From: Natronospirillum operosum
Lineage (GTDB): Bacteria > Pseudomonadota > Gammaproteobacteria > Pseudomonadales > Natronospirillaceae
Length of the DNA: 64,000 nt
Reading direction: 5' to 3'
Assembly (NCBI RefSeq): GCF_004768465.1
Contig: NZ_SRMF01000008.1
Coordinates: 62,001 to 126,000 of the forward strand
Shown here: positions 57,700 to 60,757 of the stretch, piece by piece
Layout of the letters: every line of letters begins with the position of its first letter
Numbering within the stretch: the first letter of the stretch is position 1
Position numbers and translations under genes: made by a program
The notes under the pieces: generated by a model
What the model saw: only the letters and a program-made list of their open reading frames with translations
What the model was told of the DNA's origin: nothing
Database searches by the model: none

Positions 57700-57954
57700 A
57701 TGACGGACTATTCTTCACGCGTACATATCCGCCCCTTCCTGATTGTGCTGGATGTGGTGGCCGTGCTCTGCCTGCTGGTGGGGCTGCATGACCTGTTGCG
57801 GCCGGAGATCCCGCTGGTCCATCCCAACCTGCAGTTTGACGGTTACCTCTGGGTATTGCTGCTCGGCGGCCTGATACTGGGCGCGATTTCCGTATGGACG
57901 CTGATCCGCATGTTTTCCGGCAAGGGCGTGGTGTCGGCCGAGGATATCGGCTGA
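57700..57954 (+). CDS. Hypothetical two-helix membrane protein
   Basis: 84 residues with two hydrophobic helices (about 12-28 and 47-68). I do not recognise a family. It begins two bases after the rph stop, with GGAGGCCTGACC at a good distance, so it is co-translated with rph, and it converges on the GNAT-C39 gene eight bases away. Confidence 0.75.
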   Translation: MTDYSSRVHIRPFLIVLDVVAVLCLLVGLHDLLRPEIPLVHPNLQFDGYLWVLLLGGLILGAISVWTLIRMFSGKGVVSAEDIG

Positions 57955-57961
57955 GCCCGCC

Positions 57962-59107
57962 TCAGATGGCTGCGGGGCCGATAATCAGGCTGGCGCGCAG
58001 GCCCTGACGGCCGAAGCGGGCCATGCGTTCGAACTGGGCCCGGGGGATGGGCAGCCAGGCGTTGTCGGTTGCTGAGGCTTCCAGCTCGTCGCCCACATCC
58101 GGATCATGCACATAGAGGCAGTGGGCGTCGGCCGCTACCACGGTTACCCAGTGGGGGGCCTTGTTGCCGTTCATGCGCCAGCTGCTGATCAGCACCAGCG
58201 GGATACGCCCGGCTTCCAGATGGCCGGCCAGATCAGCCGCACCGAGAGCCCCCGTCTGTACCTGCACCGGGGTGGTCGCCAGCTGGCGCTCGAAATCCTC
58301 ATGCACCAGGGTCATCACGGCCTTCTTGTCCGGGTCGCGCACGCTGTCCAGAAACAGTGGCCCGGCCTGATTGACCACCAGCGTCACGCCAAAGCCCCGG
58401 TTGTGGGCAGCCAGGGCCAGGCCGTGCGGCCCACAGCCCCCATGCCCGGATGTCATGAAGATGGTGGTGGCCTCACGCCACAGGCGCAGTTCCTCGGTGC
58501 GTTCCAGGGCGCGCTCGGAGTCCAGAGCTGCCATGGCCATCAGCAGGCTGGCCGGGCCGCAGGTGAAGTCCGTGGTCTGGGCATAGAAGGGAATCGAGCG
58601 CCGGGTCTCCTGGCGCGGATGGCGAATTCGTTTCTCCAGGCGCAGCGCCGGTGAATGGTCGGCGTAGTAGTCGTCCACGGCGGCAAACTGCCGGTAGCCC
58701 AGGCCCTTGTAGAACCGTATGGCCACCGCATTGTCCGGCCTGACTTCCAGCCGGGTGTGGGTACAGCCATGAGCCAGCGCATCCGCTTCGCTGCGGGCCA
58801 TCAGTGCATGGGCAATGCCGCGACCCTGAAAGTCCGGGTCCACCGCAATGGAATAGATGCGGCTCAGGGCCGTACCGCGGCGGTACAGCACACAGACATA
58901 GCCGGCCAGCCGGCCCTCGGTCATGGCCACCAGCAGGGAGGCGGTTTCACTGTCGATCAGGCGGCGGAAGCTGCGTCGGCTGAGGCGGTCGCTGTCGAAA
59001 CAGCGTGCTTCCAGCTGCTCCAGCGCGCTGACATCATCTCGCGTTGCCGCGCGCAGCTCAGTCGGAGCATCAACATGTGCAGCCTGGGATGGCAAGTGCG
59101 CTATCAT
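57962..59107 (-). CDS. GNAT acetyltransferase fused to a C39-like cysteine peptidase
   Basis: 381 residues from ATG 59107 (GGAG five bases upstream). Residues about 15-160 are a RimI-like N-acetyltransferase: acetyl-CoA loop QGRGIA at 94-99 and EVRPDNAVAIRFYKGLGY at 121-138. Residues about 170-360 are a papain-like C39 peptidase with Gln177, Cys183 (DFTCGPASLL), His319 (PHWVTVV) and Asp335 (HDPD); all triad residues are present. No ABC transporter is attached, unlike bacteriocin-processing C39. It diverges from an RLAN-type RimK gene across 54 bases; such pairs have been predicted to modify peptides. Substrate unknown. Confidence 0.9.
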   Translation of the reverse strand: MIAHLPSQAAHVDAPTELRAATRDDVSALEQLEARCFDSDRLSRRSFRRLIDSETASLLVAMTEGRLAGYVCVLYRRGTALSRIYSIAVDPDFQGRGIAHALMARSEADALAHGCTHTRLEVRPDNAVAIRFYKGLGYRQFAAVDDYYADHSPALRLEKRIRHPRQETRRSIPFYAQTTDFTCGPASLLMAMAALDSERALERTEELRLWREATTIFMTSGHGGCGPHGLALAAHNRGFGVTLVVNQAGPLFLDSVRDPDKKAVMTLVHEDFERQLATTPVQVQTGALGAADLAGHLEAGRIPLVLISSWRMNGNKAPHWVTVVAADAHCLYVHDPDVGDELEASATDNAWLPIPRAQFERMARFGRQGLRASLIIGPAAI

Positions 59108-59161
59108 GAAACTCCAACCCCATCTGGGGCGCCCTTTGAATGACGGTCCCGGGAGAAGACC

Positions 59162-60757
59162 ATGGCTGATCTGCTGATTGTCGTTGAACGACGCCAAGAC
59201 TGGAAGTCTTTCTATCCTACCGACAATGTACTGACCTTTCAGGAATACCTGACTGAAGCGCGGGGTCCTCTGCCGCGGGGCACGCGCGTGCTCAACCTGT
59301 GTCGGGACTACAAGTACCTGTCCAACGGCTATTACTGTTCGCTGCTGGCGGAAGCTCGCGGCCACCGGGTCATGCCTTCAGTGCGCACGCTGAATGACCT
59401 GGGGCGCAAGGCCATCTATGGTCCTCGCATCGAGGAACTGGCGCCCACCCTGAAGAAGCTGGAAGCACAGAGCACTGCGGACGGGCAGCGTGAGGTGGAG
59501 GTGGTTTTCCATTTCGGTACCTTCCCGGGGCCGGGGTTTGCCGGTGCCTCCCCCATGGCGGCCGCTGCCGAGTCTGCAGAGTCCGGTGCGGAGCCGGGCC
59601 CGGTGGCCGCTTCGGGGACCGGCCCGACACCACCTCTGGTGTCGCTGGCCCGCCAGCTGTTCGAGCAGTTCCCCTGCCCCATACTGCGCGTGACCTTCTC
59701 CACCTCGGGGCCCAGAGACCGACCGACTCCCTGGACCATCAGCAGCCTGCGGGCGGGGCGTCTGCACCGACTGACGGATCAGGAGGAAGACGAGTTTGCG
59801 CGTGCGCTGGATCATTTCAGTCGCCAGATCTGGCGCCAGCCGAAGTCCCGGCGCTCGGCCCGTTTTGAACTGGCCATGCTGGTCAACCCGGACGAGCAGA
59901 TGCCACCGTCCGACGAGCGTGCTCTGAAGCGGTTCGTGAAGGCGGGGCGGAAGGTCGGGCTGGATGTGGAAATAATCCACAAGGGCGACTACGGCCGCCT
60001 GGCCGAGTTTGACGGCTTGTTCATTCGGGAAACCACGGGTATCGACAACCACACCTATCGCTTTGCCAAGCGGGCCGAGTCCGAGGGCCTGGTGGTGATC
60101 GACGATGCCGAGTCGATACTGCGCTGTACCAACAAGGTGTATCTGGCCGATCTGCTGCAGAAGAATCGGGTACCGACTCCGGAAACGCGAATACTGAGTC
60201 GTGACAACCGCGAGGATCTGGCGGCGGCCGGCGCAGCCCTGGGCTTTCCGTTGGTACTGAAAATACCCGATGGCAGCTTTTCGCGTGGGGTGGTCAAGGT
60301 ACAGGATGCCGCCAGCCTGGAACGGGAAGCCGCTGCCCTGTTCAAGCGCTCCGCCCTGCTGCTGGCGCAGGAATTCATGTACACCGATTATGACTGGCGC
60401 ATCGGCGTGCTGGCCGGCAAACCCCTGTTTGCCTGTCAGTACTTCATGTCCCGGGGCCACTGGCAGATTTACCAGCATGGGGCGGGCGGCCAGGTCGATT
60501 CGGGCGATTTCCGCACCATGCCGGTACATGAAGCACCCAAGGCCGTGGTGCAGGCTGCGGTCAGGGCGGCCGGTCTGATCGGCCAGAGTCTGTACGGGGT
60601 CGACGTCAAGCAGCAGGGCAAGCGAGCCGTGGTGATCGAAGTCAATGACAACCCGAACATCGACGCCGGTGTGGAAGACGAGTTTCTGGGCGACGAACTC
60701 TACCAGCTCATCATGGAGGATTTCCTGCGGCGCATGGAGCTTCGGGGCCGTAAATAG
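59162..60757 (+). CDS. RimK-family ATP-grasp ligase with RLAN N-terminal domain
   Basis: 531 residues. The N-terminal RimK-like (RLAN) domain is at about 1-250 (LIVVERRQDWKSFYPTD, LNLCRDYKYLSNGYYCSLL), interrupted by an Ala/Gly/Pro-rich low-complexity insert at about 123-158. The ATP-grasp domain follows (about 290-520): LKIPDGSFSRGVVKV binds ATP, DWRIGVLAG lies in the core, and EVNDNPNIDAG carries the Mg-binding Glu and Asn. RimK relatives ligate amino acids such as glutamate to acceptors. The ATG follows GGGAGAAG. The acceptor is unknown. Confidence 0.92.
   Translation: MADLLIVVERRQDWKSFYPTDNVLTFQEYLTEARGPLPRGTRVLNLCRDYKYLSNGYYCSLLAEARGHRVMPSVRTLNDLGRKAIYGPRIEELAPTLKKLEAQSTADGQREVEVVFHFGTFPGPGFAGASPMAAAAESAESGAEPGPVAASGTGPTPPLVSLARQLFEQFPCPILRVTFSTSGPRDRPTPWTISSLRAGRLHRLTDQEEDEFARALDHFSRQIWRQPKSRRSARFELAMLVNPDEQMPPSDERALKRFVKAGRKVGLDVEIIHKGDYGRLAEFDGLFIRETTGIDNHTYRFAKRAESEGLVVIDDAESILRCTNKVYLADLLQKNRVPTPETRILSRDNREDLAAAGAALGFPLVLKIPDGSFSRGVVKVQDAASLEREAAALFKRSALLLAQEFMYTDYDWRIGVLAGKPLFACQYFMSRGHWQIYQHGAGGQVDSGDFRTMPVHEAPKAVVQAAVRAAGLIGQSLYGVDVKQQGKRAVVIEVNDNPNIDAGVEDEFLGDELYQLIMEDFLRRMELRGRK

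Follow-up and report, generated by a model that had tools for sequence, protein, structure and literature searches.

The locus examined here, in Natronospirillum operosum, raises the question of what a predicted ligase, an acetyltransferase and a peptidase encoded side by side might make, modify and cut, and whether they act together. The genes lie in a window of 64,000 nucleotides (the whole stretch of DNA that was analysed). In 2009 Iyer et al. reportedly described neighbourhoods of RLAN-RimK, GNAT and papain-like peptidase genes and predicted peptide synthesis for them. The window pair would share the domains, the fusion and the neighbourhood of that account: RLAN is fused to a RimK-like ATP-grasp domain, and the neighbouring GNAT is fused to a peptidase. 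The pair therefore belongs to a previously predicted kind, and it is real and conserved. DUF3335-GNAT fusions are noted, with a citation of Iyer et al. (2009), in the available part of PMC10318531. In the accessible portions of the full-text literature on DUF3335, RLAN, RimK with peptidase C39 or GNAT, and amidoligases (including PMC10318531, PMC4431377 and PMC2922099), no characterised product was found.

Domains and active sites of the divergent pair

The GNAT-DUF3335 fusion gene (57962..59107, minus strand, 381 aa) was delimited with the ORF list, profile matches, homologues and a structure model. The listed minus-strand ORF, 57962-59365(-), opens with a GTG inside the RLAN gene; the ATG at 59107 is the likely start of the fusion gene, and the starts of homologues fall near there. 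The RLAN-RimK ligase gene (59162..60757, 531 aa) lies on the plus strand. The start codons at 59107(-) and 59162(+) leave a divergent intergenic gap of 54 bases (59108..59161), as the sequence-only reading had described, and no sigma-70-like promoter was found in this gap by consensus match. The genome carries one RLAN and one DUF3335 copy, according to profile search.

In the long minus-strand ORF, PF11814 (DUF3335, Peptidase_C39 like) matched residues 258-462 with 298 bits against a cut-off of 25, and PF00583 (GNAT) matched residues 115-224 with 72.5 bits. These were the only models, with others for GNAT, that the protein matched; PF03412, the C39 leader peptidase of bacteriocin exporters, was unmatched. 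Numbered from the ATG, the GNAT domain (58600..59107, minus strand, residues ~15-162) is of the N-alpha-acetyltransferase type with an LEVR..FY..DYY motif, and the C39-like cysteine peptidase domain (57962..58600, minus strand, residues ~172-376) carries Q177, C183, H319 and D335. The ligase consists of an RLAN domain (59237..59803, plus strand, residues 26-214; PF14401, 136 bits) and an ATP-grasp domain (59864..60754, plus strand, residues 235-531; RimK, PF08443, 34.6 bits), both matches being above cut-off. The RLAN domain of the window protein has an insert after residue ~118 that is absent from 28 aligned relatives.

Conservation was assessed in alignments of homologues, and the catalytic role of the residues listed here is presumed from alignment with RimK/LysX and from general family knowledge. 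In the ligase, K325, K367, D411, R413, H433, W434, Q435, D481, E493 and N495 were invariant in 143 of 143 other RLAN-RimK sequences, and so were N45, G56, Y58, S60 and R66 of the RLAN domain. Q177, C183 and H319 of the peptidase were identical in 87 of 88 other GNAT-DUF3335 sequences, with a gap in the remaining one; position 335 was D in 79 and E in 8 of the 88. Among 136 other GNAT proteins, E121 was kept in 132 and Y148 in 131, and position 147 was Y in 120 and F in 13. Judged from these alignments, the active sites of both enzymes are complete and conserved. The profile matches and the conserved Q177/C183/H319/D335 thus bear out the original description of an acetyltransferase and a C39 peptidase with a full triad in one protein, partnered by an ATP-grasp ligase with an RLAN domain.

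AlphaFold models were obtained for the ligase (mean pLDDT 79.6) and for GNAT-DUF3335 (mean pLDDT 90.0). Structure searches were run with the full-length models, and the matches listed cover the GNAT and ATP-grasp parts only. The ATP-grasp part matched ArgX (3vpb) and LysX (3vpd) with Z 25.8 (rmsd 2.5-2.6, 265-266 residues aligned) and RimK with Z 23.8-24.9; the GNAT part matched Ard1 (4pv6) with Z 23.8 (rmsd 1.4, 147 residues aligned) and RimI with Z 22.9. The LEVR, FYK and YY positions were common to the GNAT and Thermoplasma Ard1 in the alignment. From sequence profiles and the model, the ligase thus resembles, and would group with, LysX, ArgX and RimK, and the modelled GNAT resembles the N-alpha-acetyltransferases Ard1 and RimI. 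The DUF3335 half had no meaningful sequence match among PDB structures.

These likenesses stop short of membership in any of the known systems. LysX and ArgX, of the LysW carrier pathway, are the best structural match, and the first two residues of the invariant HWQ block fall on an HW in LysX when the two are aligned; however, the LysX model TIGR02144 was missed (78.9 of 275.6 bits) and no LysW-type gene was found among the scanned window neighbours. The RimK/RimB system likewise pairs an ATP-grasp ligase of the RimK kind with a peptidase, as described in the available parts of PMC11957791 and PMC12239564, whereas the window pair has an RLAN domain, a cysteine rather than an aspartic peptidase, a GNAT partner and RimK scores under cut-off (70.7 of 143.4 bits for TIGR00768 and 28.3 of 331 bits for PRK10446). 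The window GNAT shares the fold and the LEVR..FY..YY motif of RimI/Ard1, but it is fused to a peptidase and fell under the RimI cut-off (TIGR01575, 76.3 of 86.4 bits). In the synthesis of NAGGN (PA3459-PA3461 / asnO-ngg), as presented in the available part of PMC8070244, a GNAT/ligase enzyme, Ngg, unites both activities in one protein and is accompanied by a peptidase gene, so that N-acetylation, amide ligation and a peptidase gene occur together there as well. The window pair is nevertheless of a different subfamily: for the NAGGN synthetase model TIGR03103 (cut-off 569 bits), the GNAT reached 21 bits, the ligase did not match and nothing in the window's genome was above cut-off.

Linkage across Pseudomonadota

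For the analysis of co-occurrence, 398 genomes were sampled evenly across the phylum. Of these, 72 carried RLAN and 58 carried DUF3335: 57 had both, 15 RLAN only, 1 DUF3335 only and 325 neither. The other partner lay within 3 kb at 55 of 61 DUF3335 places and at 55 of 75 RLAN places. This linkage is far beyond chance (Fisher p-values, computed with the genomes taken as unrelated). With RLAN in 57 of the 58 DUF3335 genomes, the two genes are co-inherited, and the possibility that they mostly occur independently of each other is excluded.

Gene content was compared at 64 loci, namely the RLAN places within 68 fetched stretches plus the window; the remaining ones of the 75 were judged by coordinates only. 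A GNAT lay within 2.5 kb of RLAN-RimK in 63 of the 64 (31 tandem, 29 divergent, 3 convergent). Because the order of the two genes varies in this way, it is function rather than old synteny that keeps them together. Within the same distance, 44 loci had both GNAT and peptidase, 19 had a GNAT without peptidase and 1 (L065) had neither. Among 80 named GTDB loci, which were the best-scoring ones and are rich in Pseudomonas, GNAT and peptidase were both found at 44, a GNAT alone at 31 and neither at 5, of which three are near a contig end. The core is therefore ligase plus GNAT, and the peptidase is optional. The proposal that ligase and GNAT-peptidase work as a pair is strongly supported by the co-occurrence and by the GNAT adjacency.

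A tree of RLAN proteins was built from 90 of 144 sequences (named loci thinned to one in three, sequences under 420 aa excluded). The partner type, peptidase present or absent, switched at least 10 times on it; this is a minimum from a quick tree with several long branches and unsure fine joins, and the labels were assigned by homology.

Some RLAN loci lacked a GNAT in spite of sufficient flank (L065, L170 and L186). In a P. aeruginosa plasmid record, an RLAN-RimK gene had no GNAT within ~7 kb, in the annotated neighbours and the fetched stretch that were searched. From the numbering of its neighbours (ggt, a glutamate transporter and pagP), we take this orphan ligase gene to be PA1345, probably. 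In the available part of PMC12802237, PA1345 is entered as a hypothetical ATP-binding protein for which a CpxR motif is predicted but lacks DAP-seq support. PA1766-PA1769 was considered as the Pseudomonas homologue and was rejected, PA1768 being an rlo protease. These GNAT-free loci show that the ligase can exist without an adjoining cap, and they count against the joint pathway proposed below.

Three genomes of one genus encode a GNAT fused N-terminally to RLAN-RimK (656-667 aa; L110:6782-8785, L112:7053-9032 and L125:6633-8603, with domains confirmed for L110), and a separate GNAT-DUF3335 gene adjoins. Other arrangements were seen singly. The sole sampled genome with DUF3335 but without RLAN has a stand-alone DUF3335 protein of 233 aa that lacks a GNAT (L119:7120-7821), flanked, by eye, by a 2-oxoglutarate-dehydrogenase-type E2 gene and a dihydrolipoyl dehydrogenase gene. 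In one genome, two additional DUF3335 genes (L120:3133-4194 and L120:12189-13397, the latter with no GNAT recognised in the domain scan) surround what appears by eye to be a peptide-type ABC transporter. At L104:6508-9809, GNAT-DUF3335, DUF2817 and DUF155 genes cluster without RLAN, and the same genome has RLAN with a lone GNAT 2.1 Mb away.

Wider neighbours of the pair

Two further families recurred beside the pair. A DUF2817 gene, which we take to encode an M14-like metallopeptidase on the strength of an HxxE-like motif, was seen at 18 compared loci and was Pfam-confirmed in the three that were scanned; the family had no match in the PDB. DUF2817 had any match in 85 of the 398 genomes and a match above cut-off in 71. 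After weak, fragment-like matches were dropped, 62 strong places in 50 genomes were left, and at 15 of the 62 RLAN or DUF3335 was no further than 6 kb away. A DUF155 gene, of the family of human mitochondrial RMND1, was seen at eleven compared loci (Pfam-confirmed in two), and its protein seems, by eye, to have a membrane anchor at the C-terminus. Of the 38 DUF155 places in the 398 genomes, 14 had RLAN or DUF3335 at a distance of no more than 6 kb. These 14 cases come from three sample families (f40, f41 and f10), to which L140 and L206 are added from the named set. The idea that DUF155 is a partner in general was rejected: of the 38 genomes with DUF155, 21 have RLAN and 17 do not, and DUF155 genes away from RLAN and DUF3335 have varied neighbourhoods with no common neighbours. 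By profile search, the window's genome has neither DUF2817 nor DUF155. Among the matches listed, no paper tied DUF155, RMND1 or DUF2817 to ATP-grasp or GNAT by title or abstract. The linkage to DUF2817, that to DUF155 in several lineages and the GNAT-RLAN-RimK fusion in one genus are possibly new.

In the window itself, a fructosamine kinase gene (PF03881, 60782-61606) starts 24 bases past the ligase stop and is probably in the ligase operon at this locus. It was rejected as a third member of the system, with a single weak match in the other loci, and so was an 84-aa ORF (57700-57954) without homologue at other loci. A CorA-like gene, assigned by eye, lies downstream in 13 Pseudomonas loci. 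Transporters adjoining the pair were of genus level only, none being common to different lineages. A comparison of 8000 small ORFs lying no more than 2.5 kb from the core genes revealed none that was common across families; the larger clusters shown did not extend beyond related genera or a single order, and most of them looked like conserved genes read in antisense or out of frame. No cis-encoded acceptor or precursor peptide was therefore seen near the pair.

Predicted product and competing explanations

RimK/LysX-type enzymes activate a carboxylate and couple an amine to it. Tentatively, and with somewhat less than even confidence, we propose that the genes form one small cytoplasmic pathway that would yield and degrade a short N-acetylated peptide or amino-acid conjugate, in a manner like that of NAGGN. 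In the predicted order, RLAN-RimK would use ATP to form an amide bond between an amino acid (probably acidic, by comparison with LysX/RimK) and an acceptor; the RimI/Ard1-like GNAT would acetylate the free alpha-amine of the substrate or product of the ligase; and the C39-like domain fused to it would cleave amide bonds of the same compound, for processing or recycling. Most likely the product would be a free molecule, either a short peptide or an amino-acid conjugate, N-acetylated and both synthesised and broken down as needed. The making, capping and trimming suggested by the sequence-only reading fit the families found, but trimming would lie outside the core, the peptidase being missing at 19 of 64 loci.

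That reading had left the choice between a peptide and a protein tail. A RimABK-like system, in which RLAN-RimK would extend a protein C-terminus, the C39-like domain would trim it and the GNAT would acetylate the N-terminus of that protein or of a different one, is unlikely but retains appreciable weight. The ATP-grasp part is nearest to LysX, ArgX and RimK, which all ligate onto protein C-termini, the GNAT is nearest to protein N-terminal acetyltransferases, and RimB removes the glutamates added by RimK (as stated in the available part of PMC11957791). The nearest structural relatives thus act on protein ends (the C-termini of LysW and RpsF, the N-terminus of S18), and this counts against a free peptide. 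However, a residue added to a protein C-terminus has no free alpha-amine, so a C-terminal tail would offer nothing to an N-acetyltransferase. With a GNAT beside the ligase in nearly all loci and fused to it in three genomes, an N-capped free peptide or conjugate fits best, and trimming of a protein tail combined with N-capping appears less likely. A protein-tail role is also disfavoured by the small-ORF comparison, which linked no acceptor gene, and by a canonical RimK-family ligase already present elsewhere in the window's genome (G000:C12:207990-208838, 266 bits, above cut-off). Against the likeness to NAGGN itself stands that no NAGGN-type amidotransferase adjoins the window pair: none resembling asparagine synthetase was found among the eight window ORFs scanned.

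GNATs often modify toxic amines, and the peptidase-GNAT fusion with its frequent DUF2817 neighbour would also suit detoxification or salvage, in which GNAT and peptidase would inactivate and degrade an unusual amide and the ligase would re-use the pieces, with no biosynthetic product. We consider this improbable, since the ATP-grasp ligase is retained at the peptidase-free loci, the closest structures are N-alpha-acetyltransferases rather than drug-acetylating enzymes, and none of 4 proteins matched a family among the PADLOC anti-phage models. C39-like peptidases, like ATP-grasp ligases (e.g. in graspetide pathways), are found in RiPP pathways, and the three activities might modify and cut a ribosomal precursor encoded elsewhere; this is very improbable, given the lack of a shared small ORF or of a cross-lineage transporter beside the pair, and the match to PF11814 rather than to the leader-cutting family PF03412.

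The proposed N-acetyl-peptide pathway could extend to the wider neighbours: in several lineages the DUF155 protein would sense, hold or export an acetylated peptide made by GNAT and RLAN-RimK, and the C39-like and DUF2817 enzymes would degrade it. We regard a common pathway of this extended form as a distinctly long shot; the DUF155 link, if true, would place the RMND1 family in a biochemical context for the first time. The neighbourhood data indicate which genes to delete jointly and what type of product to seek. With both genes found in 57 of the 398 genomes sampled from this major phylum, and with active sites that are invariant, the pair very likely makes something useful.
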